Source of the DNA: Limnomonas spitsbergensis
Lineage: Eukaryota; Chlorophyta; Chlorophyceae; Chlamydomonadales
DNA length: 64,000 bases
Direction: 5' to 3'
Assembly (NCBI GenBank): GCA_037349105.1
Contig: JAYJMM010000089.1
Span: forward strand, 186,001 to 250,000
Positions 215 to 62,793 of the stretch are shown here, in pieces. The position numbers were made by a program, and so were the translations under genes. Within the stretch, counting starts at the first letter, position 1, and each line of letters opens with the position of its first letter. The notes beneath the pieces were generated by a model that saw nothing but the letters and a program-made list of their open reading frames with translations, was not told where the DNA came from and made no database searches.

Positions 215-3200
215 ATGCTGGACGCCAACAACAAGACCGAGTGCACGGCAGCATGGGGAGAGACCTGCTTGACTCCCTGCTGGACCTGCATCGCCAGCTG
301 TGTTACACCTTGCTGGCCTACACAACGGCCATCCTTGACAAAGGTGGCGTTTACGCTGCTAACCAGCTGCTGCTAGGCGCCGAAGACTTTAACCTGGCGG
401 GCGACCTGACGGATCTGTGGCATGTGCTCTCTATCTCGGCCAGTGTGTTATGGAAGCATATTCCGGAGTCGGTGCACGGCGAGACTGTGGACGGTCATTT
501 GCCGCCGCAGTTGCCGCATGGCCGTCGTCTTCCTCCTCCTCCTCGGGAGCCCAGCGTGCCCTCAGCGCAGATTGTTCACGCCGTGGTTCAGTGTCTTGCA
601 GTTTCTATGGAGGTGAGCTGCTAAAAGAAGGGAGTGTTTAAAATATGTGTCTGGTTCAAAAGCTGACAGGCAGTCGTAGCCGTCCTCAAGGGACAAAAGA
701 ATAAAATCTTGGGCGTGGATTCAAAATAGATTGACTGGTGTATTTGACAGGTGCTTTGAAACCCAACCTGATCATGCTGGATTTGAATCCTACCCTACAT
801 GGATTTGACTCGTGCTGTGGATAGATTTGAGTGCCCTCTCTGAATGGGTTTGAATCTTGACCTGGATGAATTTGAATCCCGCACAAAAGGTTTTTGAATC
901 CTGCCCTGTATGGATCTGAATCCCATTCATTCTGGAAGGCTTTGAATCCAGCCTGTATGAATTTGAATAACATAATGTATGGATTTGAATCCCGCCCTGG
1001 TAGTTTCTGATTTCTGTCCTGCATGGATCTAAATTCCGCTCTGATTGAATCTAAATTCTGCCTGTATGCACCATATTTGAATCCCACCCTGTATGGATCC
1101 CTGTCCCGTTCTGTTTGCATTTAAACCCTGCTCTGGTAGGATTTGAATCCCACCCTATATGGATCCGTGTCCCACTGTCCCGTCCTGTTTGAATTTTAAC
1201 CCTGCTCAGGTAGGATTTGAATCCCACCCTGTGTGGATCCGTGTCCCGTCCTGTTTGCATTTAATCTGCACTCCGGGTAATATTTACATCCTGGCCTGTA
1301 TGGATCCAAGTCCCGCCCAGTTTGCATTTTAACCCTGCTCAGGTAGGATTTGAATCCCACCCTTTACGGACCTGAAATACCTTCTCTGTACTTATTTGAA
1401 TTTTCGACCTACTCCCCGCTCTGTTTAAATTAAAATTGCCTCCCCATTCCCCCGCTCTGGGTAAATTTGAATTGCCTCCCCATTCCCTCACTCTGGTTGA
1501 ATTTGAATTGCCGTCCCATTCCTCTACTCTATCAGGTATTCTCAGTGCTGCACCAGGCGCTGTTTTGGGCGCTCTTCGATGAGACTACGGGCCAAGAGCA
1601 GCAGCTTGCTAGGCCTGCACCCAGCAGCGGCGCGGAGCGCGGTTCCGCCGCGAACGACGGCGCTGCATCGCCAGCTTGCGACCTGCCAGGCCAGGGCCTT
1701 GGCGTCCGCCAGCTGCCCTGCCAGCTTGCTGACTCAAGATTGGGGTGTGCATCTCCGGCCACTGCCGCTGCCGCCAAGCGCCTGCTCTGGATCCTGTTGA
1801 GGAAGCATGCGGCCCGGACGCTGCTCAGTGCTGTGCGGTGGACGACAAATGCTCTCCTGGATCACGCAGGCACCAAGGCACCGGATCTCGCACTGACAGC
1901 TGCGTACGGGGATGGAGATCGCATCCACGCTCTGGTGCTTGACCTCATAAAGCAAAGGGAGGCGTTGCTGTCGAAGGACGAGGAGCAGGCAGCAGCAGCA
2001 GTATACGCAACAGCAATGGCAGCAACAGTAGCATCGGGATCCACAGCAGCAGCAACAGTGACATCAGTATCCGCAACAGCAGCAGCAGCAGGTGAGGTTG
2101 GTCGCCTCTAGATTCTTGATCACTACGCACTCAAGCACCCTGCTGTGTTTTTCATAGAGGATTTCCTTTTGCTCCCTGCCATTCACAATCCTCCTAACGG
2201 CTGTAATGAGCTCGCAAGAGCATTATGCTGCAAGATACCGTACCTGGATGATGCTTAGTATGCAGGTTATGCAGCATAATGTCGGATTGTTTCTTAATAT
2301 GCCGGACGCCTATTTCCCCTCATATCCCCGTTACCGTTCCCGCTCCCGTATTGCCGGTATGATGCTCAAAATGCTGGGCTTGTCTGCTTCCTCATACCCC
2401 TCCCACCGTTCACGCTCCAGCACTGCCTGGATGATGCTCAAATGCTGGGCGCCTTTGTTTCCTCATACCCCTCCCACGGTTCTCACTCTGGAATTGCCTG
2501 GATGATGCTCAAAATGCTGGGCGCGTTTGTTTCCCCCCCCACTGCTCCCGCTCATCTCCCCCAGACCATCACAAAGCACTTGAGCACCGTGCTGTGTTTT
2601 CAAATCCTTGTACATTAGCGTTATGCCGCATAATGCCTTGCCATGCTTAATATGCAGCTTATGCAGCGTAAATGCATAATGCCTGACAGATGCTCAAAAT
2701 GCTGGGCACGTCTGTTTCCACATATCCCCACCACCGTTCCCGCTCATCTCCACCAGACCCTACGGAGATCTCGGCATCTCCCCGATTGACTCGAGAGGGC
2801 AGGGCGAGCGGATCCCAGCCAAGGAACGAGGGCGGGCGCGGCGTCTCAGCAGGAGCGGGAGCAGGGATGGCGAGGGAAGGAGCGGCGGCGGCTGAGTGGG
2901 ACGAGAGTATCCTAGGCTGCATCAAGATGCGCACTGCCACATTGGCGGGGTGCGTGGGGCCAGTAATAACGTCTCAGTATACCCCCCCTCCTGAAACACA
3001 CAAAAGGACATGAGATCAACCCTCGAGGGCATCAGTACACACTACACACACAACCTCCATGCTCCTCCTCACACTCCAACGCCCTCCATACACCCAATCC
3101 TCACACTCCAACACCCTCCATGCACCTTCTGACTCTCCAATACCCTCCATGCAACCCATCCTTCCATTCCATCACACTCCCCTCCCACTTCTCCTACTCT

Positions 3201-38578: not shown

Positions 38579-38626
38579 ACTGTGTCCATGCACCTGTGTC
38601 CATGCACCTGTGTCCATGCACCTGTT
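38579..38626 (+). repeat. 14-bp tandem repeat (ctgtgtccatgcac), about 3 copies
   Basis: Three direct copies in a row at 38579-38622, unit seen directly. Confidence 0.9.
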
Positions 38627-40802: not shown

Positions 40803-40816
40803 AACAAGCGATCAAG

Positions 40817-41305
40817 AGGGGGGTCCGCATGACCCAGAGTGGGGTCCAAGCAGTGCATTGGGATGAGATCGGACTGGAAGCCAGGAGGGGGATCCGCATG
40901 ACCCGGAGTGGGGGCCAGGCAGTGCCTTGGGATGAGATCGGACTGGACGCCAGGAGGGGGATCCGCACGACCCGGAGTGGGGGCCAGGCAGTGCCTTGGG
41001 ATGAGATCGGACTGGACGCCAGGAGGGGGATCCGCACGACCCGGAGTGGGGGCCAGGCAGTGCCTTGGGATGAGATCGGACTGGACGCCAGGAGGGGGAT
41101 CCGCACGACCCGGAGTGGGGGCCAGGCAGTGCCTTGGGATGAGATCGGACTGGACGCCAGGAGGGGGATCCGCACGACCCGGAGTGGGGGCCAGGCAGTG
41201 CCTTGGGATGAGATCGGACTGGACGCCAGGAGGGGGATCCGCACGACCCGGAGTGGGGGCCAGGCAGTGCCTTGGGATGAGATCGGACTGGACGCCAGGC
41301 TAGGT
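40817..41305 (+). repeat. 69-bp minisatellite, about 7 copies
   Basis: Unit with 'gggggatccgcacgacccgg', 'agtgggggccaggcagtgcc' and 'ttgggatgagatcggactgg'. The last five copies are essentially identical and the first two diverged. Since 69 is a multiple of three, several frames stay open on both strands (plus-strand 23-residue unit with QAVPWDEIGLDARRG). The open frames are better explained by the repeat than by a gene. Confidence 0.97.
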
Positions 41306-41620: not shown

Positions 41621-41737
41621 ATACCAAGTTCGAAGATGTGAAATGAATTACCAGGTTCGAAGATGGGAAACAAACTACCAGGTTCGAAGATGTGAAATGA
41701 TCTACTAAGTTCGAAGATGTGAAATGAACTACCAGGT
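41621..41737 (+). repeat. 27-bp minisatellite, about 4 copies
   Basis: Unit 'ttcgaagatgtgaaatgaac' plus 'taccagg', with minor substitutions. Confidence 0.93.
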
Positions 41738-42639: not shown

Positions 42640-42810
42640 TCTAAAATGCATACTCAAAAACGCACACCCACACAATTGCACACACACACAAATGCACACA
42701 CACACACACACACACACACGGATGCACACAGACACACAAATGCACACACACACACAAATGCACACAGTCCCCCCCCACCCGCCCCTCCCATACACCCACC
42801 CACCCACACA
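42640..42810 (+). repeat. (CA)n-rich microsatellite
   Basis: Runs of CACACA interspersed with 'aatgcacacacacacac' and 'gcacacagac', followed by C-rich sequence. Confidence 0.95.
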
Positions 42811-47200: not shown

Positions 47201-50200
47201 AGAGGGTTAAGGTTTTTTTAAAGTTCAGGGCTCAGTGGGACAGAAGAGGGGGAAGATAAGGTCGTTGGCAAGCACCTTCATGACTCCCACCATGCCGATC
47301 GATGCGCCATCACTGTAGATTAGACCCAGGCTGCGGGAGAGGGTTTAGGGGGTTTTTAAGTTCAGGGTTCAGTGGGGCAGAAGAAGGGGGAGATGAGATC
47401 TTTGGCTTGCAGCCACGTCGTGTACAATGTGCCGATCGAGGAACCGGAACTGCCTACAAGGCCCAGGCTGCAGGGGATGGTTGAGTGGTTCCAGATTAAG
47501 GGTTCAGTGGGGCAGGAGGAGGAGAACATGAGGTCGCTGGCGAGCAGCCGATATGCGGATCGGGGTGTCGACGCTGTACATGTATCCCAAGCTGCGTGGA
47601 AGAGCACAGAGCAAAGCGGTTGGGGCTGATCTTGAGTGTGAACGGTCCATTGCATAGGCGTCAAGCCTTACACGCTGAATGGGGCTACTGTAACTGCACA
47701 TTAATCCTGGGCTATGGGACTTTTTAGGGTTTGTGTTCGTGGTTTAAGGTTTCAGGATGGCCCGCCAAATCAGCGGGCTTGATATTCTTGACACACCGAT
47801 ATTGATGTTTAACAGATATCTACCTTTCTAGCAGCAGGCTCTGTACTCGTAACACAGTAACACACCCTACCGTATATTCTGATATTTTCTATACTGTATC
47901 TTGGATTTGCTCCACCCTTACGATCAGCAGGCTAAAAATCAAAACAAATACTTTTCTGGTATATTCCCTGTACTGGTATCTTGCATCTGATCCCTCCTAG
48001 CAGATTCGAAATTAAAAAACATTACATTCTCTGTAACAGTATCATGGATCTGCTCTTACCTCCGGATCTGCAGGTTCGAAATTCCAAACACCCCTGTAAC
48101 GAAAAGGCCCTCTGGGCAAACCAAGCTGGCGTTGAGGGACAGCTCCGTGGCAGTTACTCCAAAGCGTCGGCTCTCAGAAGGCCCTGCATGTGTCAGATAT
48201 TTGAATTTTCAATTTCACTCAAAACCAAGCTGGCGTTGAGGGACAGCTCCGTGACAGTTACTCCAAACCGTCGGCTCTCAGAAGGCCCTGAAGGGGCGAA
48301 ATATTTGAATTTTCAAATTCACTCAAACCGGGGGGCCCCCCCGACAGTTACTCCAAAGCTTCGGCTCTCTGTAGGCCCTGCAGGGGGAAATATTTGAACG
48401 TTTAAATTCACTCAAAACCAGGCTGGTATCGAGGGGGAGCTCCGTGACTGTTACTGCAACCTGGCGGCTCTCAGAACGCCCTTCAGGGTATTGTTTTGTA
48501 ATTGTCAAATTCACTCAAACCAGGCTGGCATGGAGGGGGAGCTCTGTCAGGGTGACTCCAAAGCGTCAGCTCTCAGAAAGCCCTGCAGAAGTAATTTTTG
48601 TAAGATTCAAAGTCACTAAAAACCCGGCTGACATCAAGGGGGAGCTTTGTCACAAGAGCTTTGAAGCGTAGGGTCTTCATGAGAGCCCAGAAAACGGAAA
48701 TCCGCCGAATTCATAATTCAGGAGGCGTCTGTGACTCAAAGCGTCAAATCTCAGAGAGGCCCTGTTGGTTTAGTTTTCAAATTTTGAAAGTTCGATTTCA
48801 CAGTTTCCAGTGACTTGAAAGTGTAGGTGTTCAGACAGCTCAATTGACAGCTCTGAAGAGGTACATGTTCTAAATTTGAAATTCTGAGGTGCCAGGGCCT
48901 CGAAGGAGTCAGGTGGCGGTTTAAGATGTCCGATCCAAACAGTCCCATCCATTCAAACACAACATGGCATCAAGGGGGACGTCAGTGACATAAACTCCAA
49001 CTCTCCAAGCGCCTGCTCTTAGATCGGACTGTGGGGGGGATTTTCGAAACTTGAATTTCAAAGTTGATGGTGAGCAACAACCTACAGCTCTCAGATAGGC
49101 ACACAGGGTGCAAAAACGTTTGAAATATTAAGTTCAAGCCTTCACATTTGAATTTCCTCGCCTGATGGATTCGACATCCGTTCATTGATACCTGACCATG
49201 TACTGTCCTTTGAGGCAAACTGTGTTTTTGATTGAGTTGAATGTATACCGGTAAGAGCTGTGCTGAGAATGCGCTGAGTGGAGACTGTACGTACCAGCGC
49301 TGCACGGAGAGGATTGTACGACTGATGACTAAAAGTGTTGCGCGGACCTTAATTGGTGTCTTTCGGACCGACTGCACGATATTTAGCGATACAGCAATGA
49401 ACTGTTTCAAAAACAACCAGCTGCGCATGCGCGGAGTAGGGTTATTTTTGCCAGTGTGACGAATGTGATATATCAGTTGTCAACGGGGGTGCGCAGACCC
49501 TATCCCGTTTTACGGAAATTGTTTTGCTTGGTAAAACCAACACAATTGTAAAAATAAATAGATTTCAGGTATCAAATAAAAAACAAACAAAAAACGAAAA
49601 AGGGAATGGTTTCGGGTATCAAACAAAAAACCAACTCAAAAGAAACCAAAATCAGACTTATACTACAGTATCTTTTCGATGCATTTCGCCAGGCGCTGTT
49701 CTGATGCATAGTCTTGAAGCATGATTTAAAGGCAGTTTTAGTGAGGCATATTTCCCAGCTGTGATTTTGTAGGGCTTTGCCCATGATGTCCCAACACTCT
49801 GGACATCGCCTAACAGGCACATCCGCTTAAACAACGGGCTATACAAGCTGTACGTGCGGTACAAGCAGTGGTACGAGCGGGTAAGGCATAACAGTAATCT
49901 CTTACCAAAGGCTGGTACAGGTGGCACAGCTGTGCCAGGCGGTGTTTGAGATGGGGATGGGGAATCGATCCCGGTCTGAGACAAGGGTGGCGGAGATAGC
50001 CCGGGGCTCGTCAAAGGCGGGGTTATGGACAGTAACGTTGGCTGCGGAGGCTGGCTGGTTGGAGCTCGGGGGGATGAGGGATGAGGAGGAGCTAGAGGCG
50101 GCGGCAGTGGCGGTGGGGAAGGGAGGGGAGGTGGACGGGGTCGAGACTGGGACGGTGTCGATGGGGGTGGCGGACGAGGGGGAGGGGGAGAGCGGGGCGG

Positions 50201-53200
50201 CGGCGGCGGGGGAGGTGATGGTGGCGGGGGCGGGGGTGGCGATACGGGCGGGGGAGGTGGGGGTGGAGAAACGGGCGGCGGGGGAGGAGGCGGGGACATG
50301 GGCGGGGGGGGCGTAGGCGGCGGCGGCGGTGGTGGGGACGTGGGCGGCGGCGGCGGCGGGGGGGGTGTAGGCGGCGGCGGCGGTGGCGGGGACCGGGGGG
50401 GAGGCGGCAATGCAGGTGGCGGCGGTGGCGGCTGGAGCTGAGATGTGGCGGATGAGCAGGATGGGCTTGACTGGGATTGTGGGCGGCACAGGCCGACCGT
50501 GGCGCTGGAGGCATCGATCGAGATGATGCTCAACTGAAATGCAAAAAGGGGGGTGAGGTGGGGTGGACATGGTCAGCCTCGGTTGGCGAGAAAGAGGAGG
50601 CCGTCAGTCCTGGACCGGAGGGGTAGCCAGCACAGGCCGACCCTTGCACTGGACGCACCAACGGAGATGGTGCTCAACTGAAATCTCTTTTAGTAACCGC
50701 AACCGCTAATCACTTCAGTTGACCACAGACAGCCCCCTCCCTCCCACCTCTACTGTGAAGGTATGACCCCTCTTCTGTACCCCTCCCTTCCCCTCTCCCT
50801 CCTCTCTCCTCCCCCTCCCCCCCCCCCCCCCCCCCTCACTCCCCCCTGACCCCCCCCCCTCCCACACACACCCTTGCTTCCCCCCTACACCCACCAGTTT
50901 TGTTTGCAGTGGTTACCGCATCACTTTCAGCTACATTTCAGCTACACTGTGGCCTATGGCCACCAGCCCCTGGCTCGGCCAGCCCTGCTGCCAAGGCCAC
51001 CGGCCAGAGGCCGGTCCAGGTTTGGTGTCAATCGGCCCAGGTGTGGAAGCACGGACCATCAAAGGTGGTCCAGTGACCACTAAAAAAACACTGACACCCA
51101 CCATCAGCAAAGCATTCCCGAAGATGAAGGTCTGCCCAGCCAGCAGCGAGGCGTTTTGATATGTATATATCGCATTCTGCCTGCCTCCGTTGAACATGTA
51201 CACCATTACCCGGTTGCTCCAAGAGCCGGGGACCTGCAGTACAATGGGTGCAACACAGGGAGAGAGCAGTCACATGGTGCAACACAGGGAGGGAGCTTGC
51301 TGCGGTACAGGGAGTTACACAGCTTTGTATTGCCTGCGGGAGTCACAAACTCTTAAGGCACACTAGAAAATTCTCACACCTGCTCGTAAGGGTCGTTGTA
51401 CTGCCTGAAGTTGATGAAGTACGTACCGCCCAGTCCCATGCTGGTGGGTGCAGTCAGTTGCAGGAAGTTCACCTGAGGAGCAAAACAGGTTTTATGGTGT
51501 TTAGAGTGAGGGGGGAGGGGAGGGAGAGTAGTGTGGGTGCAGACAGTCACAGGAAGTTGTCTGGAAGGGGAAGACAGGGTGAAGAGTGTTAAGAATGACG
51601 GGGGTTGGGGGAGGGAGAATAGTGTTGTCAGGTGCAGTCAGTTACAAGAATTTGTCCGGAAGGGGAAACATATTATGGGGTGTTCAGAGAGAGGTTGGGA
51701 GAGCAAATAGTGTTGGTGGGTGCAGTCGGTTGCAGTCAGTTGATATGCAGACCTATTAGTTTCCCTCTTCTTCCTCATCTCCAAAGTGTTACATGTTTAG
51801 GGTTCAGGGCTACGGTTGTTTCGTTCTAAGAGTTTACCGTTAAGGGTGGATAGGGTTCATACTTCATAGGCCTCAGGGTTCATGGCTCAGAGTTCAGGGC
51901 TCAGGGCTCAGGGCTCAACGTTCATGGTTCATGGTTCAGGGCTCAGGGATCAGGGGTCAGGGATCAGGGCTCAGGATTCAGAGTCTTATATGGACCCAGG
52001 GGTACAGCTAGTGGACACAGTCAGTTGCAGGAAAATGACCAAATTTATGTCGGTGGGTTACAAGAGCTGGTGAATGTCGGATGTGTGAGGTTTGCTAGTG
52101 AGTGGTGTCAGTGAGTGGTGGGTGTTGAGTGGTGCGTGGGCACCTAGGCAAGGAATGCTAGCGGGTTGAGTGGTGGGTGCTGTAGGGTGGGTGCATAAGT
52201 GGTGAGTGACAGGTGGGTGAATGGTTCTGGTGAGTGGTGGTGTGTGGTGTCTGGATGAGTGCCATTGTTTGATAGCAGCAGGCAGGTGCGCATGACAGTG
52301 TATATTTTAGTACGTGCCTGAGTACCTTCGGGGGGCCACCGGGCGGCCTTTTCTCGGCGGATTGGGACCAAACCTTGTCCGGCCTACGGCCAGTGGCCCG
52401 ATCAGTAGGGCTACACCAGAACCCGACGGCCGTAGGCCGTGATGTAGCTGAATTGTAGCTGAAGCGCGCTAAAATAATCAGGTGCGCATGATATCCGCCA
52501 TTGATAACCCGGTTTCAAGCCTCGCCTGATTTGTTGCAGCAGCAGGTGGCATGCAGGCACGCATGCCCCCCATCGTTATGCTGTACCGTGCTGTCCCTTT
52601 CTTTAGGGTTTAGGGTTCAGGGTTTACAATTCAGGTTCTAGTTTCACCTGACTTGTGGCAGCAGGCAGTATGAAGGAGTGCGTAGCACCCATGGTTATGC
52701 CGCACCTAGGCATCCCTTGATATAGGGTGAACAACTCAAGTTCAAGGCTCACCTGATTCGTTGCGGCAGCAGGCAGCACGAAGGAACGCGTGATCCCCAG
52801 GGACATGCCGTCCACGGCCAGGCTGATGATGGGTTGGGCCCAGCCCAGCTGCCACAAGTGTGGAGCGTTGGGGCACTTGAGGCCGATGCCAGAGTAGCCC
52901 CTTTAGGGGTGGAATTTTGTGAGAGGGTGGGCGGAGGGCAGGGAGGTAGGCGGATGGGTTTTGCCCAGATCAGCCGCGACAAGTGCGGAGCATTGGGGCA
53001 TTTGAGACCAACGCCAGAGTAGCCCTTACTAGGGCAGCATTTGTGTGGGAGGGTGGGAAAGGGGCAGCCAAGTGGGAAGTTAGGCAGGTGGGCGGGCAAG
53101 GAGGCAGGGAAGGAAGGCATTTGTGTGGGAGGGTGGGATGAGGGTAGCCAGGTGGGCAGGCAGGGAGGAGAGTATCCAGGTGGGCGGGCAGGGAGGACGT

Positions 53201-56200
53201 GGCCTTGACATAACCATCAATCATCCTTTGGTGATTCAAGAAGTGTCCGTGCAGTGTTCACCTGAGCCTCCACCTTGTAAATGTAGAATGTAAAATATAA
53301 AAGTTGTTGGTCCAGAGGCAACACAACCGCTCTTAGCCGCTTTCGAAAGGGCCAGGCGGAGCGAACCGGGGGAGAGAATTGGGCACACAAACAAAGGAGG
53401 CCCTAAAAGATGAACAACACTTAGGAGAGCAGCCTAAAAGGGTTCCGGCGAGGATGTCTGGATGCTTAAACAGCAAACTGATTACTTCTGCCACAGGTGC
53501 TTTTGCCCCATACCAATACCTACACCCTTCTATCTCACATTATGCATGAGGTGTCTCCGTACTGGTCCGTGGCGAGGGTGCTTGGATTCTGGATGGCAGC
53601 ATGGTGGAGTCCCATGTTGTGCTGTATCTCATGCGATATCACCTATGGAAGCATGCATGGGGTGGGAAGTCGTGCTGGACACACATGGGACATGCACACA
53701 TGAATGGGATGGGTGCAGTCCCATGGCATGCTGCTACTCATACGAGAAGATCTGCACATGCATGCATGAGGTTGGAGTCCCATGTTGCGCTGTATCTGAA
53801 GCGACATCATCTACGAAAGCATGCATGGGATAGAGGTCGGGTTGAGCGCACATGGGACAAGCATGCATGGGGTAAGAGGTCGGGTGAGCGCACATGGAAC
53901 ATGCATGCGTGGAGGGGGCAGGTGCAGTCCCATGGCATGCTGCAACTAGTGCAAGAATATCTGCACATGCATGCGAGGGTGTAGTCCCATAAGGCCTTGT
54001 TGTGCTGTATCCCATGCAATCTTAGTCATATCACCTACGAAAGCTTGCATGGGGTGGAGGTCGGACTGACTGCACATGGGACAAGCATGTATGGTTAATT
54101 TCAATCCCATGCTGTGCTGTATTTTATACTATGTCACCTACGCACACATGCGTGCATGCATGCATGAATCTCCAGGTCATGGCTGACCTCCCCATGCTAG
54201 CATGCTCCAACCCCCCCTCTCCATGTCATTTCTCATGCTCATTCATGCATGACATGGAGGATGTGTGGGGGGGGGGAGGGAGGGCATGGAGCGCAGGAGT
54301 GTGACAAAGCAGATCTGCGGCCCGTTATTTACCAGGAAATTACAGGTGAGACTTGTGCCTGCGGTGAAGGCCAATTGGGCGTCGTCCCAGATATGCAAAT
54401 GTAGTATGCCTTATGAATGCCCATGCCAAACAATCACGTCTATGGCAATGCATGGAGAGGTACATGGAGAGATGCATGAGGAGATGCATGGCAAGGTGCA
54501 TGGGGTGCATGGCAGTGCATGGGGAGGTGGTCAAGGACGTGTATGGGGGAGCATGCCAAGGTATGGAGAGGTGTGTGAGGAGATGCATGTGTGTGCATGG
54601 CAGTGCATGGGGAGATGCATGGGCGTGCATGAAAGTGCATGGGGAGGTTCTTGGGGACGCTGAGATGCATGTGTGTGCATGGCCAAGCATTAGAAAGTGC
54701 ATAGGGGTGTCTGGCAGTGCATGACAAGGTGATTGGGGCGATGCATGGGGAGGTGCATAGGGGTGCAAGGCAGTGAATGACAGGGTGCATGGACAGATGC
54801 ATTGGGAGGGGAATGAAGAGTTGCATGGGAATGGCGCATGGATAGCCATAGCCACTTACGTCCAGTCGGTTCCAGTAGTCGGATCTGATCCATGTTTGTC
54901 GCCCAAGAAGCTCACCTGTATAAATAAAAGCATGAGGTCAGTCCTAGTCAGCATCACGAGGTCAGTCCTAGTCAGCACCATGAGGTCAGTCCTGGTCAGC
55001 ACCATGAGGTCAGTCCTAGTCAGCACCATGAGGTCAGTCCTAGTCAGCACCATGAGGTCAGTCCTGGTCAGCACCATGAGGTCAGTCCTAGTCAGCACCA
55101 CGAGGTCAGTCCTAGTCAGCACCATGAGGCCAGTCCTAGTCAGCACCATGAGGTCAGTCCTGGTCAGCACCATGAGATCAGACCTAGTCACCACCATGAG
55201 GTCAATCCTAGTCAGCACCGGGAGGTCAGTCCTAGTCAACACCAGAAGGGCAGTCCTAGTCAGCACCTGGAGGTCAATCCTAATCGGCACCATGAGGTCA
55301 GTCCTAGTCAGCACCATGAGGTCAGTCATAATCAGCACCTGGTGGTCAGTCCTAATCAGCACCATGAGGTCAGTCCTAGTCAGCACCAGGAGGTCTGTCC
55401 TAGTCAGCACAAGGAGGTCAGCCCTTATGATTGTCGAGAGGTTGGTCTGTTTGTACAAATTTCCTCTAAGCTCGCCAGGTTTCCATTTCAGCGCAGTTCA
55501 AAAACGTATTTCAAAATTTCAACACAAAAACAAATGATGGCAGCGCTCACATGTCACAAGTGCCTATGGGCGGCGCTGACAGGGTCCATTGAGAAGCTGT
55601 AGTTAAGGAGATGGATTTAAGATATAAAAATGTATGCAAGGAGATAGATTCAAATCTGAAATGGAATTTACGAGACGGATTTAGAATATAAAATGGATTT
55701 AAGAAAGGCCTGTTGATCTGCACTGATGACAAGAGGCAAAGATTAGGCTCCACACAAAAACGAGCAGACTGAAGATGTTTTCAATGTGGCACAGGACGTA
55801 TGGATCTAACAGGACGGATCTAACAGGACGGATCTAACAGGATGGATCTAACAGGATGGATCTAGCAGGATGGATCTACAGGATGGATCTAACAGGATGG
55901 ATCTAACAGGGCAGAACACGTTGGTGTTGGTAGGAGGCAATGTCAAGGCTCCGCAAGGCAATATCAACGAGATGAAAATGGATTCAAGATAACACAAGAT
56001 GGCAGATCTAAGGGGACAGAGCAAGATGGTACTGATGGGAGGCTATGCCAAGGCTCCGCACAAATATCAATGAGATGAAAACGGATTCAAGATAACACAA
56101 GATGGCAGATCTAATACCTCTTCTTCCCTGCCGCCTACGCTTCCCTGACACGCCACCGCGACCTGCAGTATCTGCTCTTCGGATGCCACCGACAGGTCGC

Positions 56201-59200
56201 CACGACCCCTCCCAGTATCTATTCTTGGGTGGGCCGGCAGGTGGGTCGTGTAGTTAAGCCACGTGACAACATTAAAAAACGAGCACGAATGCGAGCGTCC
56301 GCGAGCCATTTTGCTTTCAATTAACAAGATGGCAGATCTAAGAGTTAACAAGATGAATCTAAGGGGGCAGCACTCACCGGTGCCAATGGGAGGTGCAGAC
56401 AGGGTGTTCGCCGTGACGCAGCCGGAGGGGTACGGCGGCAAGATGTACACAATGTGCCTATCGGGGAGGGGAAAGGAGGGGGGGGCATTAAGGGTTTAGG
56501 GTTCCGGGTCTCGGGCCGGACAAAGTGTTAAAGCGGGCATGTATTTTTAAATCGAAATGTGGCTGGCAGGAGTTTTATCTGCCCCGTAGCCTCCCCAAAC
56601 GGCAGGGTTGATGAAAATACCGAAAAAGAAGAATAAAAGTGAAAGTTAGCACACACATATACTTTAATATTTGCCAGAAAGTAAATAATGCACATAAGCC
56701 AGTAAATAAATAAATAACATAGGACAGCACCGAAAATTAGGTTTGCCTTCCCACGCCCCTAGGAATTACCTTTTTTATATTTCAAGCACCTCAGCCAATT
56801 TTCTTAATTGTTTATCGAGCCCCGCAGGATGAAATTTCACCGTTTACTAGTTCACGCGTTGCCTGCTTCCGCCCGATTCGGACTGATACCAACCGATCTA
56901 ACCAATTCCGACTGATACCAACCGATCTAACCGATTCCGACTGATACCAACCGATCTAACCGATTCCGCCAAGCGACGTCATCGAGCACCCCCGACATCA
57001 TCTACTTATAGCTCGCGCAGCTTATCGCGCACCCCTCGTCAACTTACTTTTGCAAGAAGGCGAAGCTAATCTACACTAGGTATATAAATAGCCTTTGCAC
57101 ATTGAGTACACACATAATATTTGTCAGAAACTGCTGAAACCACATTTTCCATAGGGATAAAAAAGGCCGGACAGGAAGTAAATAATATACGGTATGTCAG
57201 TAAGTAAAAAGAAATGCCTGAGTGTAAATAAATATCATTTGCCTGCAAGGAAATAAATGTAATTTGCCAGAAAGTTAGTTAATGACATTTGCCGGTACCG
57301 GAAGTACGTAAATGACATTTGCTAGAACGTAAATAAATAACACTTCCCAGTACCTTAAGTTCATTAATACCGGTAGCATTTTTCAGCGCGTACCGTACTA
57401 TCAGTGTCGATTGGAATCCACTATGGTCTCAAACCATGAAACCACAGTGGATAAAGTGGCCTTAAAATCTAAAACGGTCGAACCAAAGCTTGATAGTCGT
57501 AAAAGTCGTGTTTTGAGCGAAAAAGTTTGACGTGTTTTCTCCTTAAATGCAGGACGCAAGCTTTACGTGCATATATCTGATTTGCATTGAGAGAAGCAGA
57601 AGCAGCAGAAGCAGACGCAGCAGAAGCCGAAGAATCGCAGTACGGGGATGAGCGAGCGTCAGATGCGGGCGACGATGCGTTTAAATGGAACGTCCCCTTA
57701 CAGGTTTCTTCCCACAAGCGCAAGTTTGCGAATTAGCTACTCGATCAACATCGCAGAAAAGGAGGCAGATAGCACCAGCTCCAGCAGCGAGGAGGTTGAG
57801 CAGAGAGGCAGGGACCGCCGGACCGGGACAGGGCCAAGGTAGCTTAAGCAGCAGAAACAGCAGGCGGGGCTGGCAATACCTCAGAAGAGCATGCAATCAG
57901 AACCAGCTCCAACAGCGAGGAGGGCGAACAAATAGCAGGTGTCAATGGAGCAGTGCGCGGGCGTGGGCGTGGGCCCGGGCCCTAGGGTCAGATGCAAGGG
58001 TTTTGGGATGCTCCAAATGCCGATGGGAAAGCCGCAGTTGCGCTGCGTGCCGTCAGAGCAGGATGAGGCTATGAGGCAGCAGCAGCAGCTTTAGAGCAAG
58101 TAGTGCAGTGTGGCGTGTGTGGTCCCCTTGACTGAGATGGCTGTATTTGACAAAACCAAATTCAAAATTATTTCGAGAAACAAAAATCAGTGCTGGATAA
58201 AATTTGGCTTCATTCAAGGCCAAAACATGGAATCAAAGCTACTGAATACCATCTGACGCTGACGGTACGCTATGTAGATAACATTTTCCAGAAAGTAGCG
58301 TTGTCAGTAGGGATGGTAAAAATTAAAAATAACTGAACACACATGTGTATCATCACCTGTATGAGTCTGTAGGGGTGCCTGCAGCCTGCATCGCCAAGAC
58401 AGCAGCGTTGGACAAAGAGTTGTAGGGTGTACACCAGCCTGGGTTGATGGCCACACAGATGGATACCTAGGGGGGATGAGAGAGCAATAGTGGGCATTGG
58501 GAAAGCGCCTATTGGATGCATTTCACAAAGTGTGGTAGGCTATTCCCAGCCAGGGTTGATGGCCACACAGATGGATACCTAGGGGGATAGATAGAGTGAG
58601 GGGGGATACACACCGGGGCAAGGGGCGAGAGGCGATAGGTTGCTCACTAGCAGGGAATAACCAAAGGGGATAACCACAGGGGCGAGGGCCGAGGGGAAAG
58701 AGGGGAAAGAGGATGCTCTCTAGCAGCATCCCCACTAGCATAAAGCGGGATAGGGTCCGCGCATCCCTGTTGAGAAGTAATACACCGAGTTCGCCGTGCA
58801 GGCAAAAATTAGCCTACTACTACGCGCACGCGCAGCTGTACCACCACTTGTTCCCATTGGCTGGTATATTTTCGATATTTTGTGGCGGAATTACTACCCT
58901 GCACCCCCACCCAAAAAAAATTGTTGTTAGATTATAATTCTGTCGCGCATCACAACGCGCACCTCCAAAAATAATTACGGTATATAAGCGCAGAGCTACA
59001 CCGGTTTTACGGTATGGCTTATGTCAGGATTTATGGTTGGGAGCAGCACCCATCACCCCTATTAAATACCTCACATAGTACATGACCACCACTTGTTCCC
59101 ATTGGCTGGCATAATCAGGGGCTTAGGGTTCGGGTCTACTCCCTAAGCCCTCAACCCAAATCGGGCTCTCACATCTAGCACCATCATTAAAGTCACCGAC

Positions 59201-62200
59201 CCAATGGTTGGATCCTGGTTTTATTTTTATGGTTTGATCAGAACCTGGCCGAAGGGGTTTTGAGGGAGTGCGTTGTCCCTTAACCCTGGACCCTAATTTT
59301 GCATCCTACACCCTCAACCATAACCCTAAAACCGAAAAACTAAATCCTAAACCCTACATCATGTCCACCTCCACAAACAGCACAGCCGCTGGGATAATCA
59401 GGATCTAGTTTAAGGAGTTTAGGGTTTAGGTGTTTCCTTAACTGTGAACCCTCAACCGTGCTCACCTCGAGTACCAATAAAGTCACCTTTCTTGATCAGG
59501 ACCTGGCTGTGGGAGTTCAGGGTTTAAGCATCCCCTTGACTATCAACCCTCAATTGTGCTCACCTCTAGCACCAACACAGCTGCTGGGCTGATCAGGACC
59601 TGGCCGTAGGAGCAAGCCTGGTTCCACCCAGCAAACGACTGCTTAGGTGGGGCCTGCCAAGGAGGGGCCTGCCAGGCGAAGGGGGGGAGGGGAGTGTGTA
59701 AGTGCAGTGTGAAATGTAACGCAAAGAACAAGCCTGGTTCCACCCAGACAATGACTGCTTAGGTGGGGCCTGCCATGGAGGGGCCTGCCAGGCGAAGGGG
59801 GGAGGGGAGTGTGTAAATTAATGTGTGAAATGTGACGCCAAGAACAAGCCTGGTTCCACTCAGACAATGACTACTTGGGTGGGGCCTGCCATGGAGGGGC
59901 CTGTAAGAGGGGGGGTGCAGGAGTGAGAAACAAAAGATTTTCCAAGGCGCAAAAGCCAATATTCTATTTAAGTTATAAAATAAAATAAAAAAAATACGCT
60001 AGTCTTGCAATGATTTTGCAAAATCTTTTGTTTACTTACGGTACCTGCATTTCTTTGGCGCCCATAAAATTTTGCATGGTCTTTTTTTTGTAAAGCCTTC
60101 TCAAGAAGACCATGCAACTCCTGTCCCTGACACCCCCCTTTCTTGGGACCCCCAAAGGGGGGGTGAAAATTGGTGAGAGGCGTGTGAAACAAGGCGTGAA
60201 ATGTGACGGCAAGAGCATGCCTCTTTCCACCCAGAACATTACTGCGTCAGTGGGGCCTGCCATTCAGGGGCCTGTCTAGGGGGTGGGGGGGGAATGAAAC
60301 AAGGTGTACAATTTTGCCATAGGGTGCAAAACAAAATGTGGACTGTGACGGTAATAGCATGCCTGGCTCCACCCAGAAAATGACTGCTGCGGTGGGGCCT
60401 GCCGCTGTAGGGCCTCATGAGGGTAGGAGTTGTACCAAAGAGTGAAAAGAGGCATGAAATATGACACGGCTAGTCCCAACCAGTAAACAATTGCTTTTGC
60501 AGGACCTGGCACAGTGGGGCCTGCCAGGTGGGCAGGACGATACGTGTGACACGAGTTGTAAACATGGCCATTGGGGTGTGAAACAATGTGTGAAATGTGA
60601 CTGCAGGAGCAGGCTTGATGTCACCCAGAAATGACTGCCTGTGTGGGGCCTGCCACGGTATGGCCTCAAGTGAGAGGTGTTCTAACAAAGTGTGAAAGTG
60701 GTTTGAAATGTGTTATGGCTGGTTCCAACCAGGAAGCAAATTCTCCAACGGGGCCTGACAGGGTAGGGAGAGGGGGGGGGCGCCTGATTGTGAAAAGAGG
60801 TGTGTGAGGTTCCAAAAACAATCACACGCATCGCGTCTGAAGGAGATCCCTCAGAATACCCCCCCCCCCCGGCTGTCCCTCCTCTTAGGCCCCACCCTAC
60901 CTCAACAGCTGCTCATGCTCCCATCTACCACTCCAAACAAGATCGATCACATCCCATCAGAAGCAAATCCCATCCAACGCCCCTTAAACTTCTCTCAGGC
61001 CACACACCCCTCCCCGACTGATCTCGCACCCACCCACAGGTCCCAGAAACGACCGAGCGCATTGTGTCTGAAGCAGTTCCACCGAAATCCCCCCCACCCA
61101 CCCCCCTTCGCTTCTCACAGGCCACACTAGACCTCCCAGGCTGCTTGCTCTCACCCACCGATCCAAACAAGACCGAGTGCATTGTGTCTGAGCTCTGAAG
61201 CAGCCCCCCCCACCCCCTTTGCTTCTCACAGGCCACACCCGACCTCCCCAGTTGCTCTTGCTTTCACACACTGATCCAAACACGATGGACCCCATCACCT
61301 CTGAAGTGGTTCCTGCTGATTCCCCCCCTTCCCCCTTCCCTTCCCCCACCCCCTTCCCCCTTCCCCTTCCCCCTTCCCCTTCCCCTTCCCCAGCCCTTCC
61401 CCTTCCCCTTCCCCCAGCCCCTTCCCCCTCCCCCCTCCCCCCTTCCCCCTCCCCCCTTCCTTCTCCCCCCTCCCCCCTCCCCCCTTCCTTCTCCCCCATT
61501 CCCCCTTTCCCCTCCCTTTCCCCTCACTCATCCCTTCCCCTTCCCCCTCCCCCCTTCCCCCTTCCCCTCACTCCTCCCTTCTCCTTCCCATCCTCCCTTC
61601 CTCCTCCCTTTCCCCTCACTCATCCCTTCCCCTTCCCCCTCCCCCTTCTCCTCCCCGACTGCCCTCGCACCGACCCACCGTTCCAAACACGATCGTGCGC
61701 ATTGCGTCACCAGTTGTTCCCGCCGGCTCTCCGCAGTTGCTGACCACCGCAAAGATGATGCTTGGGGAGTACGGCAGTGACGGGATGGCAAAGCCAGCCA
61801 GACGGCGGCGGCGCTGGTGATGACCTTGGTCACCAGCCGTAACATTGCCAGTCTGGGCCAGGCGGCGGCGCCGGTGGTGGCGCTGGCCTTGGCCGACAGC
61901 CGTACCGCCACCAGCAACAGCCGTACCGCTGGTAGTAGCTGCACCGCTGTACAGTGACAGGTCTTCCGCGAGGATGTCCAGGTCCAACACATCATGAATC
62001 AAATAATCAGGTCCGGATCCAGATCCAGATCCGGAGTCTGAGATCAGATCCGACTGTTCCGCAGCTCCGGCAGTAGCAACGGCAGCGGCATCCAGCTCAG
62101 CAGCCTCCGGTGTCCGCTGCTGCTGTACGTCTTTTGCACCCGCTGCCTGACGCCGCCCCCGCTGCCGCCTGAAACGCGCCCGCACCGTCTGCCCTGGCCT

Positions 62201-62793
62201 CATCACGCGCTTCGACTCCGCCGCGGCAGCGGCTGCGGCGGCTGCAGCCGGCGGCGGCAGGCCTGGCCCGGGGCCTATCAGCAATCCTGACGCCAGCGCT
62301 GTCGTCATGTCAAGGTCCAGGCGTGAGCCGTCATCCAGGTCCAGAGCGTACACCTGGCGGGAGCCGCCCAGCTCCTGAGGCATCATCTCGATGCGTACAG
62401 AGAGAGTGCCTGTGTGCGTGTAATCGTGTATTTGAGCTTGCGTGTGTGTAACTGTGAATGGGTGTGCGTGTGTATCAGTGTATGTGTGCCTCTGTGTGTG
62501 TGCATGTGTATGTTTGTATTTTGTATTTGAGTATATGTGTGTGTAATTGTGGATGTGTGATTCAGTGTACTTGAGCAGGTGTATGTATATATCAGTATCA
62601 GGGTGACGTGTCGGGGTGGGGTGGCCAAGGAAGCATGTGTGAATGTCCGTGCGCATGTTTGCGTATGCATGTTGGTGAGTAATTCCAGCCTCTTGAGCCC
62701 AGCCGCACCCGTCACTGTCGCCTCGGCCTCTTCGCCAGTGCCCAGCGATCCAGCCGCTTCCGCGAAAGGCTGAGCGACGACGCATCCTGCACC
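43730..62793 (-). CDS. Gametolysin-like peptidase M11 with polyproline rod, lectin-like and ShKT-like modules (at least 16 exons, N-terminus unresolved)
   Basis: A secreted zinc metalloprotease of the gametolysin (M11) family, which degrades cell-wall/extracellular-matrix glycoproteins. Exons in transcript order: ~62793-62709, 62409-61679, 59653-59564, 58466-58357, 56457-56378, 54915-54860, 53642-53539, 52900-52753, 51472-51380, 51233-51102, 50533-49906, 48183-48060, 47193-47035, 46534-45467, 44878-44749, 44221-43730. From the second exon on all junctions are GT/AG with matching phases, giving about 1,380 residues. Modules: prodomain (RQVYALDLDDGSRLDL); protease core NQACSYGQ, HIVYILPPYPSGC, TWIRSDYW, HEIQHNMGLHHA, CIMGY Met-turn, CPNAPHLWQLGW; ISIDASSATVGLCR; polyproline rod; CPEGLFVTGVFG and LGLICNDG; Gln/Pro-rich linker; ShKT-like Cys cluster; Ser/Thr-rich tail. 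All metal ligands are intact. A signal peptide was not found, so the start may lie outside the window. Confidence 0.9.
44222..44400 (-). repeat. Duplicated acceptor region before the last M11 exon
   Basis: 'ggaagtgtgaacaagcaggg' followed by 'atgacgccacaggtctgggc' at 44224-44285 is repeated at about 44322-44385 with few changes, spacing about 100 bp. Confidence 0.85.
44749..44878 (-). CDS. M11 gene exon completing the ShKT-like module
   Basis: Joined in phase (AG+G), it reads LCRSDAGTLASCPLSCGTC, matching the ShKT ending C-x(n)-C-x3-C-x2-C. Then LAAVQQWYCLPDGIVAGGEL leads to donor 44749. An alternative donor at 44737 keeps the same frame and adds four residues. Confidence 0.78.
45467..46534 (-). 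CDS. M11 gene exon with Gln run, ASNGQAQ repeats and Pro-rich linker
   Basis: Phase 2 entry (AG+G = Arg), phase 2 exit at donor 45467. It contains a run of nine Gln, an ASNGQ[AS]Q repeat in four copies (30 bp each), a Cys module with LSGLRLARSEDAILQIRLLC, then LPPPPP/APPPP rod sequence. Last comes CVDSTVLPEVPQ...ADCAARAALGLC, the first half of a ShKT-like module completed in the next exon. Confidence 0.85.
46560..47034 (-). repeat. Copies of the 47035 exon end and donor, with TGCATGG minisatellite
   Basis: The exon end and donor ('cttacctgaatccgagctgc' on the plus strand) recur as 'tcacctgaatccaagctgtg' (about 46908) and 'tcacttgcaacccagttgtg' (about 46791). Each is followed by 'atggca...gcgcactgcatgg'. 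Between them lie short 'gtgcatgg' repeats (46620-46770 duplicates a 65-bp block). Confidence 0.85.
47035..48183 (-). CDS. Two exons (48183-48060, 47193-47035) forming a Cys-rich lectin-like module
   Basis: The joined text has CPEGLFVTGVFGISNLQIRS directly followed by LGLICNDGASIGMVG, then FSCPTGFDAVHMSDG and QLGFRCAGGV in the next exon. The pattern C-P-x-G-x-x-V-x-G-x-x-G...L-x-L-x-C recurs twice, and again in the following exon (ACATESGAG...ILQIRLLCAP). It resembles carbohydrate-binding-type repeats of algal matrix proteins. The fold assignment is inference. Confidence 0.75.
47194..47720 (-). repeat. Array of four copies of the 47193 exon start and acceptor
   Basis: Plus-strand 'tgccgatcgatgcgccatca' and 'gacccaggctgcgggagagg' mark the exon start and acceptor. 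Copies lie at about 47230-47345 (near perfect), 47395-47480, 47520-47605 and 47640-47710, progressively diverged. Confidence 0.88.
47880..48059 (-). repeat. Copies of the 48060 exon end
   Basis: The real end 'cttacctccggatctgcagg' plus 'ttcgaaattcc' is echoed at about 47990-48020 ('cctcctagcagattcgaaat') and 47915-47945 ('cccttacgatcagcaggcta'). Confidence 0.65.
48184..49025 (-). repeat. Array of about 6-8 decaying copies of the 48183 exon start
   Basis: A unit of about 100 bp contains (plus strand) 'ccaagctggcgttgaggg', 'agttactccaaagcgtcggc' and 'tctcagaaggccctg'. Acceptor copies fall near 48288, 48375, 48480, 48582, 48680 and 48758, with a faint one near 49010. The nearest copy differs from the exon at only about two positions over its first 66 bases by eye. 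The more distant ones differ increasingly and also lose length. Confidence 0.9.
49485..49515. repeat. Transposon-terminus-like motif (inverted orientation)
   Basis: 'ggtgcgcagaccctatcccg' followed by 'ttttacgg' is the reverse complement of the motif at 58740-58772 and similar to that at 9470-9500. Confidence 0.55.
49906..50533 (-). CDS. M11 C-terminal strand plus polyproline (hydroxyproline-rich) rod exon
   Basis: It begins LSIISIDASSATVGLCR, the closing part of the M11 region, then about 150 residues of PPPPPP/SPPPP repeats typical of volvocine extracellular-matrix proteins, where the prolines are hydroxylated and glycosylated. It ends PPVPAFG at donor 49906 in phase 1, which joins exactly to the GG of exon 48183. 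The polyproline DNA is GC-rich with long GGCGGC/GGGGGT runs. Confidence 0.88.
50534..50700 (-). repeat. Copy of the 50533 exon start
   Basis: Plus-strand 50625-50690 ('agcacaggccgacccttgca...ggtgctcaactgaaatc') duplicates the acceptor and first about 55 bases of exon 50533. Translated minus strand: LSTISVGASSARVGLC against LSIISIDASSATVGLC. Confidence 0.9.
50895..51095 (+). repeat. GGCC-palindrome dispersed repeat, copy 3 (full length)
   Basis: Runs from 'ttttgtttgcagtggttacc' through 'ggccaccggccagaggccgg' and 'ggtttggtgtcaatcggccc' to 'aaaggtggtccagtgacc'. It sits inside an M11 intron, seven bases from donor 51101. Confidence 0.88.
51473..52035 (-). repeat. Copies of the 51472 exon start
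   Basis: Plus-strand 'tgcagtcagttgcaggaagt' at the exon recurs as 'tgcagacagtcacaggaagt' (51538), 'tgcagtcagttacaagaatt' (51632), 'tgcagtcggttgcagtcagt' (51720) and 'cacagtcagttgcaggaaaa' (52017), with G-rich spacers. 51780-51990 between them is a 'cagggctcagggttca' repeat. Confidence 0.82.
52327..52490 (-). repeat. GGCC-palindrome dispersed repeat, inverted diverged copy
   Basis: Contains 'accaaaccttgtccggccta', 'cggccagtggcccgat' and 'tgtagctgaattgtagctga', the reverse complement of the family core and of 'cagctacatttcagctaca'. Confidence 0.65.
52515..52752 (-). repeat. Two copies of the 52753 exon end and donor
   Basis: The real exon end (plus 'ctcacctgattcgttgcggcagcaggcag') recurs at about 52642-52705 ('cacctgacttgtggcagcag') and 52527-52600 ('gcctgatttgttgcagcagc'). 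Minus-strand text is CGITMGATHSFILPAATSQ against GMSLGITRSFVLPAAATNQ. Confidence 0.88.
52901..53200 (-). repeat. Copy of the 52900 exon start plus GTGGGAGGGTGGG spacer repeats
   Basis: 52965-53035 duplicates the acceptor and exon start. Minus-strand YSGVGLKCPNAPHL against the real YSGIGLKCPNAPHL, with the following sequence diverging (SRLIWAKP against WQLGWAQP). 53040-53200 has two or three copies of 'tttgtgtgggagggtggg'. Confidence 0.9.
53539..53642 (-). CDS. M11 zinc-binding exon (HEIQHNMGLHHA)
   Basis: Acceptor ATAG before GTG at 53642, phase 0 in, phase 2 out at donor 53539. It encodes VISHEIQHNMGLHHA and then the YGD that precedes the Met-turn. Two His of HExxH plus the third His of the G-x-x-H element would bind zinc, and the Glu is the general base. 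The M of the Met-turn (CIM-GY) is split across the next junction (AT+G), a strong confirmation of the join. Confidence 0.95.
53643..54165 (-). repeat. Array of degenerate copies of the zinc-motif exon start
   Basis: Plus-strand 'gtcccatgttgtgctgtatc' at the exon recurs at about 53778, 53985 and 54104, with acceptor copies at about 53810, 54034 and 54136. Shorter echoes ('gtgcagtcccatggcatgct') lie near 53716 and 53922. The zinc-motif residues are lost in the copies (for example LQIQRNMGLQ, and a stop before YKIQHSMGLK). Confidence 0.88.
54930..55440 (+). repeat. 24-bp minisatellite, about 21 copies
   Basis: Unit 'accatgaggtcagtcctagt' plus 'cagc', with few substitutions, directly upstream (in transcript sense) of the 54915 exon. 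Being a multiple of three, it leaves open frames on both strands (eight-residue units), which I do not call genes. Confidence 0.96.
55545..56377 (-). repeat. Copies of the 56378 exon end, with 'ggatctaacagga' repeat
   Basis: The exon end ('ccggtgccaatgggaggtgc') is echoed at 56018-56055 ('tggtactgatgggaggctat'), 55918-55955 ('tggtgttggtaggaggcaat') and most clearly at 55558-55595 (minus WTLSAPPIGT against NTLSAPPIGT). 55797-55910 is a 14-bp-like 'ggatctaacaggat' tandem repeat. Confidence 0.82.
56870..56970 (+). repeat. 31-bp tandem repeat, 3 copies
   Basis: Unit 'ttccgactgataccaaccga' plus 'tctaaccga'. Distantly similar to 9775-9825. Confidence 0.9.
57590..57970 (+). other. Possible nested plus-strand coding fragments inside an M11 intron
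   Basis: 57590-57701 reads EAEAADA-type acidic sequence ending DERASDAGDDAFKWNVPLQ before GT. 57754-57836 reads EKEADSTSSSSEEVEQRGRD and ends at 'caag' followed by gtagct. 57895-57940 echoes it ('caacagcgaggagggcga'). Acidic Ser/Glu segments of this kind occur at the N-terminus of some transposases and nuclear proteins. No start codon, catalytic core or phase-proved chain was found. Confidence 0.3.
58467..58610 (-). repeat. Copy of the 58466 exon start
   Basis: 'agggttgatggccacacaga' plus 'tggatacctagggg' at 58552-58588 repeats the acceptor and first about 30 bases of the exon at 58438-58470. Confidence 0.92.
58740..58772. repeat. Transposon-terminus-like motif (direct orientation)
   Basis: 'aaagcgggatagggtccgcg' followed by 'catccctgttgagaag'. 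Matches the inverted copy at 49485-49515 over about 30 bases, and 9470-9500. Confidence 0.55.
59165..59563 (-). repeat. Copies of the 59564 exon end and donor with telomere-like spacers
   Basis: The exon end (plus 'cacctctagcaccaacacag' then 'ctgctgggctgatcaggacc') recurs at about 59464-59510, 59362-59405 and 59170-59215. Spacers are 'ccctcaaccgtgctcacctc' and CCCTAAACC-like runs. Confidence 0.8.
59654..60765 (-). repeat. Array of about 7-8 copies of the 59653 exon start
   Basis: A unit of about 110-125 bp with plus-strand 'cctggttccacccagacaat', 'gactgcttaggtggggcctg' and 'ccatggaggggcctg'. Copies lie at about 59730, 59848, 60215, 60362, 60465, 60610 and 60715, with identity falling with distance. 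The 'ggtggggcctgcca' element is the acceptor plus exon start. Confidence 0.88.
60800..61678 (-). repeat. Array of five copies of the 61679 exon end and donor, plus a long CCCCTTCC tract
   Basis: The real exon end and donor (plus 'cgacccaccgttccaaacac' then 'gatcgtgcgcattgcgtcac') recurs near 61270-61320, 61150-61205, 61038-61090, 60925-60975 and 60805-60855, spaced about 115 bp. Each has 'acccac' or 'acacac' before 'atccaaacaagaccgagtgc' or a variant. 61325-61660 is a C/T tract of CCCCTTCC units wedged between the exon and its first copy. Confidence 0.88.
61679..62409 (-). CDS. M11 prodomain exon
   Basis: It is entered in phase 1 after a CACACAG acceptor at the edge of a (TG/CA)n tract (62400-62570). 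It pairs with donor 62709, where AEATVTG continues into TLSVRIEMMPQELG. Then follow VYALDLDDGSRLDL and RPGQTVRARFRRQRG, in the manner of gametolysin propeptides. After these come an Ala-rich stretch, acidic sequence and basic RRRRLA patches that could be processing sites. It ends SIIFAVVSNCGEP...IVFGT at donor 61679, matching the N-terminal strand of the M11 catalytic domain. Confidence 0.75.
62399..62580 (+). repeat. (TG)n-rich microsatellite next to an M11 acceptor
   Basis: TGTGTG-rich sequence on the plus strand (CA-rich on the transcribed strand) directly upstream of the acceptor at 62410. Confidence 0.9.

Follow-up and report, generated by a model that had tools for sequence, protein, structure and literature searches.

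Repeated sequence in the introns of algae is known from introner elements, which form dispersed families. Tandem repetition at the splice junctions themselves was described in human genes of segmental duplications, in which internal tandem repeats (minisatellites) occur at exon-intron boundaries (PMC2812944). The units of these minisatellites include the exon-intron boundary, and their expansion is seen in genes that were duplicated recently; roughly half of them lie inside coding exons, and those at the boundaries can create new introns or alternative transcripts (PMC2812944). The Rogers model, which invokes tandem genomic duplication and AG/GT proto-splice sites, likewise involves the local duplication of exon sequence together with splice signals (PMC2891723; PMC4974935). 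In mammalian cells, the fill-in of break ends by CST/Pol alpha-primase followed by end-joining produces small tandem duplications and is a source of homology-independent head-to-tail duplications, for which the smallest overhangs used were 43 bp (PMC8355091). Both boundary tandem repeats (PMC2812944) and small tandem duplications that arise from break repair (PMC8355091) are already known.

In this study, a window of 64,000 nucleotides was analysed, which corresponds to positions 186,001-250,000 of contig JAYJMM010000089.1 of Limnomonas spitsbergensis. The published genome of this Arctic snow alga, which was assembled using long reads, has 260,248,090 bp in 124 contigs, the longest of which is 10.736 Mb, and a GC content of 54.15% (PMC11228838); the genome that was searched here likewise has 124 contigs, with 260,226,709 bases in total. 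In the minus-strand, gametolysin-like region (62785-45467), we modelled 11 exons (E1-E11) with 20 edges, which were set by reading frames, phases and splice sites, while a coding predictor supplied the end of E8 and the distal end of E11; these exons were drawn by eye and phase, with the copies partly known beforehand. The phase is consistent throughout E1-E5 and throughout E6-E9, and E10 is in phase with E11 (46534-45467) and out of phase with E9. One exon seems to be missing between E5 and E6, and, because of the E9/E10 mismatch, E10-E11 may be a separate gene, in which case the E9-E10 interval (49905-47194) would not be an intron and the gametolysin-like gene could end near 49.7 kb. A 104-bp array of about five units lies between E9 and E10 (48117-48588). 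E5 starts at position 54915 with AG/GTGAGC, so that its acceptor abuts a donor-like sequence, and a 24-bp array of about 20 copies that contains no exon sequence is located just upstream of it (54931-55425). A Pfam scan of selected frames from parts of the window found a kinase as well as a gametolysin M11 match below the threshold (17 bits vs a cut-off of 21). A TrAA12 match, which was barely over its cut-off and sits on a (CCCAGC)n repeat, was taken as spurious, and a sub-threshold Kdo match overlaps the kinase. Among the exons of the gametolysin-like region, outside protein support is strong for E6 only, in which 52900-52753 shares 61% identity over 51 aa with P0001, a EukProt protein with a gametolysin domain and the sole match of that search, and weak for the exon at 51233 (27.5% identity, E 0.024). 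An ab initio gene finder that was trained on about 16 kb of ORFs proved too weak for short exons and chained spurious ones; it was kept solely for ranking the long exons and for some edges.

A copy was called when the outer 40 nt of an exon matched its own adjoining intron with a score of at least 18. In the gametolysin-like region, 11 of the 20 edges have such a copy (6/10 starts and 5/10 ends), and the copies are composed as a first-pass annotation of the window had described them, i.e., the upstream ones carry the acceptor and the first exon bases, and the downstream ones carry the last exon bases and the donor (Table 1). The consistent side, which the annotation had also claimed, was confirmed in this region, in which wrong-side copies were found at 0/18 edges and opposite-strand copies at 0/20; in the other window genes, there was one wrong-side match among 14 edges, which was caused by an in-exon CAG repeat. 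This consistency follows from the geometry, as a duplication across a junction puts the extra half-exon on the intron side. Shuffled exon-intron pairings, a check that the annotation had proposed, gave 0/162 matches in the gametolysin-like region (1/162 at cut-offs of 14 and 16). Measured from each exon to its outermost copy, with spacers and the borderline E4 zone counted in, the array zones of this region cover 4,495 of the 13,633 intron bases (33%). The first 25 residues of the E6-matching stretch of P0001 (aa 321-345) also match the upstream copy at 53027-52953, which is therefore a duplicated exon start.

Table 1. Exons of the window with junction copies. Positions are those of the window; a slash marks the splice junction; identities are listed going outward from the exon where stated.
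Feature	Position	Strand	Remarks
E1, 1107 nt, starts ATG, ends GGAACG/GTGGGT	61679..62785	minus	strong coding score; phase fits E2
Four downstream copies of E1 end + donor flank, last ~30-54 exon nt	60890..61325	minus	identity 0.66-0.79
E1 downstream copies singly	61325-61243, 61188-61132, 61080-61009, 60959-60890	minus	GT kept in 4/4
E2, 105 nt, arrays on both sides, nearest copies meet at nt 57-59	59564..59668	minus	phase
Seven upstream copies, E2 acceptor flank + first 51-73 exon nt; nearest two reach nt 59	59726..60795	minus	identity outward 0.95, 0.84, 0.77, 0.79, 0.73, 0.72, 0.74
Two downstream copies, E2 end (both from nt 57) + donor flank	59350..59515	minus	identity 0.78, 0.71
E3, 110 nt	58357..58466	minus	phase-consistent
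One upstream copy, E3 acceptor flank + first 62 exon nt	58518..58596	minus	identity 0.84
E4, 80 nt	56378..56457	minus	
Weak, borderline downstream copy of E4 end, last ~16 exon nt	55890..55937	minus	
E6, 148 nt, GYSGIGLKCPNAPHLWQLGWA..., arrays on both sides, nearest copies meet at nt 73-78	52753..52900	minus	P0001 match; same limits in paralog L056
Upstream copy, E6 acceptor flank + first 73 exon nt, AG lost	52953..53066	minus	DNA and protein-level match
Two downstream copies, E6 end + donor flank: 52711-52619 (from nt 78), 52584-52514 (from nt 90)	52514..52711	minus	
E7, 93 nt	51380..51472	minus	phase-consistent; matching exon start in paralog L056
Two upstream copies, E7 acceptor region + first 26-29 exon nt; AG lost in both	51533..51694	minus	
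E9, 628 nt, proline-rich	49906..50533	minus	
Upstream copy, E9 acceptor flank + first 68 exon nt	50610..50684	minus	
E10, 159 nt, arrays on both sides meeting at nt 97-102	47035..47193	minus	phase fits E11, not E9
Three upstream copies, E10 acceptor flank + first 97 exon nt	47234..47604	minus	identity outward 0.88, 0.72, 0.81
Three downstream copies, E10 end (from nt 102, 105, 100) + donor flank	46621..46972	minus	identity outward 0.87, 0.73, 0.74
Exon starting CGTGCAG/GAGGTTGTGCAGGCC, open to stop codon	36283..37932	plus	strong coding score, ORF
Five junction-spanning upstream copies, 36283 acceptor + first 24-60 exon nt; AG kept in 5/5	35640..36212	plus	
71-bp downstream copy, end of kinase exon 22683-21088 + donor region	20606..20676	minus	

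In the other genes of the window, 2 of 14 edges, which were fixed mainly by coding score, are copied (the start at 36283 and the end at 21088). The total for the window is 13/34 edges on 10 exons, eight in the gametolysin-like region and one each in two other genes, which is fewer than the fifteen or more exons of the first-pass annotation. Its statement that all four intact genes are affected did not hold either: in the first plus-strand gene (0.1-12 kb), a copy was found at 0/5 definable edges, including the one at 612, beside the start at 613 that had been claimed for the phenomenon. The array that precedes the acceptor near 8693 extends no more than a few nt into the exon and hence carries no exon copy. 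Among the 56 copies from the gametolysin-like region, the array before 36283 and the Rab gene L043 described below, 37 span the junction (at least 15 exon nt and at least 10 intron nt), i.e., they are head-to-tail tandem units that cover the exon-intron boundary. Ordinary dispersed repeats, which would have undermined the interpretation given in the annotation, left no sign in a DNA search of one 401-base exon region against the 260 Mb genome, which returned its own locus only at limited sensitivity, as the search skips common words and missed diverged paralogs.

The copies decay without regard to their splice sites. The splice dinucleotides are kept in 25 of the 37 junction-spanning copies (AG in 14/18, GT in 11/19) vs 22.3 +/- 2.9 for random adjacent pairs; there is thus no sign of selection for or against decoys, the dinucleotides decay neutrally, and selection on the copied splice sites was rejected as the main driver. 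Identity declines with the distance from the junction (Spearman -0.47, P 0.003, for 37 non-independent copies). The earlier claim that the nearest copies are the most similar is accurate overall, where it is driven by the exons at 59668 and 47193, and fails at 61679 and in Rab L043; in the 36283 array, the nearest copy alone stands out. The copies are 0.77-0.79 identical to the functional junction and about 0.69 identical to each other, which is a near-star relation with the exon at its centre. Adjacent copies share 149 differences from the junction vs the 86.5 that are expected under independent copying. This excess is nearly flat (ratios of 1.72, 1.78, 1.52, 1.46 and 1.88 at separations 1-5), which is why it can be accounted for equally well by copying from copy to copy and by site-rate variation or alignment error. 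The share of identical changes between copies drops unevenly with separation, from 0.57 to 0.33.

Local duplication was also sampled elsewhere in the genome. For 1,600 60-mers drawn at random from 20 random 10-kb regions, a copy (score of at least 20) was located no more than 1 kb away on a given side in 34% of cases and on either side in 41%, compared with 0.4% in a control in which one 1-kb stretch of another region was searched; for the 60-mers of the window (n=620), the values are 21% and 32%, respectively. Tandem Repeats Finder covered a mean of 31% of the same 20 regions (L009-L028; range 2-96%) and 16% of the window. The authors of the L. spitsbergensis genome also ran Tandem Repeats Finder for masking, and their repeat table lists 0.10% satellites, 72 simple repeats and 22.8% unclassified repeats (PMC11228838). 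The sampled tandem-repeat cover is far above the satellites and simple repeats of that table, and tandem repeats are possibly hidden within its unclassified class. The window contains a very young 69-bp array of seven copies with 98% matches (40816-41299), which has open frames of 196 aa on the plus strand and 243 aa on the minus strand, as well as interstitial 7-bp arrays of GGTTTAG, which is telomere-like (44659-44729), and of AGGGCTC (51868-51981).

We consider that the junction copies are explained, with a probability of roughly 0.7, by rampant local tandem duplication of which selection retained only the events that left an exon intact. Pieces of about 50-150 bp would be duplicated very frequently, either through slippage during replication or through the filling-in and joining of broken ends, and most of the duplications would land in introns or intergenic DNA. 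A duplication that spans a junction would still leave one intact exon, because the exon-proximal copy keeps its splice site, and would place an extra half-exon inside the intron (acceptors upstream, donors downstream). It would be tolerated for as long as splicing uses the exon-proximal site, readily in the fast-evolving gametolysin-like gene and rarely in housekeeping genes. With the exon nearly fixed and the half-exon copies decaying neutrally, the exon would continue to resemble the source, and its copies may remain recognisable for longer than ordinary intron duplications. That starts and ends are copied alike fits a process at the DNA level and not one that is polar with respect to transcription.

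This reading was weighed against a special anchoring of the duplications at exon edges. In a naive test of the gametolysin-like region, the 11/20 edges exceed the 26% of all interior 40-mers (P 0.006) and the 21% of those outside the junction zones (P 0.0008), and this uncorrected excess counts against our reading. When a two-fold correction for detectability is made, which is a model assumption in that the copy of a slow exon is taken to diverge on one side only and to be visible about twice as long, 46% or 37% of the edges are expected to be copied (P 0.27 or 0.08), in support of it. At cut-offs of 16, 18, 20, 22 and 25, the corrected P for the strictest interior rate is 0.25, 0.08, 0.16, 0.16 and 0.39, and overall the corrected P at cut-offs other than 18 spans 0.16-0.59. 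The correction may be too generous given the small difference between the exon-side (0.793) and the intron-side (0.769) identity of the copies; this is less contrast than a frozen exon predicts and argues against local duplication with exon selection, as do the near-star relations, which were predicted by the exon-source model of the first-pass annotation. The region was also picked for being striking, which inflates any edge excess. Moreover, the exon-side reach varies from 16 to 97 nt among the exons, with no fixed register of break points relative to the junction. An edge-anchored duplication mechanism remains unproven.

A sample that was blind to repeats was obtained using a WDTAGQ motif pattern, whose 27 genome hits are all covered by 24 stretches, from which 14 Rab/Ran genes were kept. 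Their exons came from a purpose-written spliced protein aligner, independently of repeats; the set omits exons below 20 nt and doubtful terminal exons, and two Ran genes are intronless in the aligned part. A copy was present at 1/71 edges (score of at least 18; 2/71 at 14-15), compared with 5.6% of 594 tests in the intron interior (10.4% at a score of 14). Hence, the exon edges of the Rab/Ran genes show no excess of copies over the intron interior. In the sole positive, Rab L043, an exon end is followed downstream by six copies that span the junction. When genes were resampled, the edge deficit was weak (P 0.15, or 0.03 if exon copies are visible twice as long); this weakness counts against our reading, which the rarity of the copies in these genes as such supports. 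The explanation offered in the annotation, i.e., local slippage or template switching at exon edges with selection holding the exon, therefore survives in part: the local process and the selection agree with copies that match their own junction only, and the special anchoring is not supported by the Rab/Ran rates or by the gametolysin-like excess, which is non-significant after correction. Three WDTAGQ hits outside Rab genes (L034, L036 and L044) share an LRLVGP..VGRHNQLP-like downstream stretch, which we take to be, perhaps, one retroelement family. Within three gametolysin paralogs (1.7 kb each), the E6-matching exon is copied at 1/6 edges (the end in L055), with the exon end in L057 being uncertain. 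In L056, the limits of this exon are identical, and no self-match was obtained within 1.7 kb at E <= 1e-3. Since L056 lacks a self-match and L055 has an end copy of its own, the arrays look young and locus-specific.

The three exons with copies on both sides share a feature that is unexplained by independent duplications and counts against our reading. The nearest start copy ends, and the nearest end copy begins, at almost the same mid-exon point, or hinge (nt 59/57 of 105 in E2, 73/78 of 148 in E6 and 97/102 of 159 in E10), with gaps of -3, +4 and +4 nt in 3/3 cases. In a simulation, three gaps of at most 4 nt had a P of about 6e-4 under uniform break points and of 2e-3 to 6e-3 under a mid-exon tendency, in a test that is post hoc and concerns three exons. 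The outer copies follow the hinge inexactly in E2 (51-73) and E6 (90) and exactly in E10 (97, 97, 97; 102, 105, 100). Such a pattern might arise if breaks or fork stalls recurred at one point in the exon and repair inserted a copy of the exon unit (acceptor flank, exon and donor flank) into the centre of that same unit, with U[UV]V as the result; the exon formed last would then be central, the older half-exons would form outward shells on both sides, and introns would grow thereby. The coincidence of the nearest copies in E2, E6 and E10 fits this account, as do the three copies per side of E10, whose layer identities (0.88/0.87, 0.72/0.73 and 0.81/0.74) match in two of three layers, and the first layer of E6 (0.79/0.78). 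However, most of the affected exons are one-sided (E1, E3, E4, E7, E9, 36283, 21088, Rab L043 and paralog L055), and among nine internal exons, with six copied starts and four copied ends, three were copied at both, compared with 2.7 expected. E2 has seven upstream vs two downstream copies with unequal identities and an outer reach of 51-73, the second end copy of E6 starts at nt 90, and the pattern concerns three exons and was noticed after the fact. We therefore regard duplication centred on the exon as unlikely. An E10-type pattern would be expected from exon units nested one within another, each inserted at mid-exon, with a recurrent in-exon break site as the milder alternative; the one-sided arrays, which are the majority, need neither. 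That some exons have been repeatedly rebuilt in this way, the whole exon unit with both splice flanks being copied into a mid-exon break and leaving half-exon shells by an onion-like growth of the intron, is a doubtful proposition, to which we give still less weight.

Retention of the copies for a function, exon-modelling artefacts and an origin in intron gain all appear far less probable. The copies might be kept as regulatory decoy or poison splice sites, at which use of an upstream copy leads to a premature stop; good splice sites do remain in some copies, and the two E10 copies that were translated in the exon frame each encounter a stop after 34 codons. This idea is made highly improbable by the splice dinucleotides, which are no better kept than other positions and are lost in both E7 copies and in 4/6 copies of L043, and by the matching exon of paralog L056, which has no copies. 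An artefact, with the exons fitted to the repeats or the tandem arrays misassembled, deserves consideration since the exon models were drawn in the present analysis and the coding signal is weak for short exons; we judge it very unlikely, as P0001 supports both E6 and its copy from outside, the L043 exon with its end copies was found by homology alone, the copies are 66-95% identical, which is far beyond read error, and the assembly is based on long reads (PMC11228838). The least probable account holds that the copies are remnants of introns that were formed from duplicated coding sequence, or of duplicated alternative exons. The tandem duplication of exon sequence is indeed a proposed route to introns (PMC2891723; PMC4974935), but in the case of E6, paralog L056 shows the exon with identical limits, flanked by an intron on either side and free of copies, which means that those introns pre-exist; moreover, the copies carry a real intron flank and an exon edge, and each of those listed for the gametolysin-like region spans one junction and ends within the exon, so that none of these is a complete extra exon.

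In the literature searched (titles and the openings of abstracts), no earlier account was found of introns made of junction copies, or of their extent, their decay into half-exon shells and a shared hinge. These observations show the origin of some intron DNA, in that decayed copies of a gene region's own splice junctions can occupy a third of its introns, and they indicate that, in a genome with a high level of duplication, splice-site decoys and half-exons pile up neutrally, which has a bearing on intron growth, cryptic splice sites and gene prediction in repeat-rich algae. If the shared hinge were general, it would represent a new, exon-centred route of intron growth that could be dated layer by layer. 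Compared with the dispersed introner families, the one exon region that was searched matched its own locus only, at limited sensitivity. Small duplications by fill-in were demonstrated in mammalian cells (PMC8355091) and are a candidate pathway in the alga. Unlike in the Rogers model (PMC2891723; PMC4974935), there is no sign of intron gain, and the copies consist of a real intron flank and an exon edge beside an existing junction. In comparison with the human boundary minisatellites (PMC2812944), the extra units in the alga are intronic, strongly decayed half-exons, and some exons carry them on two sides with a common hinge.
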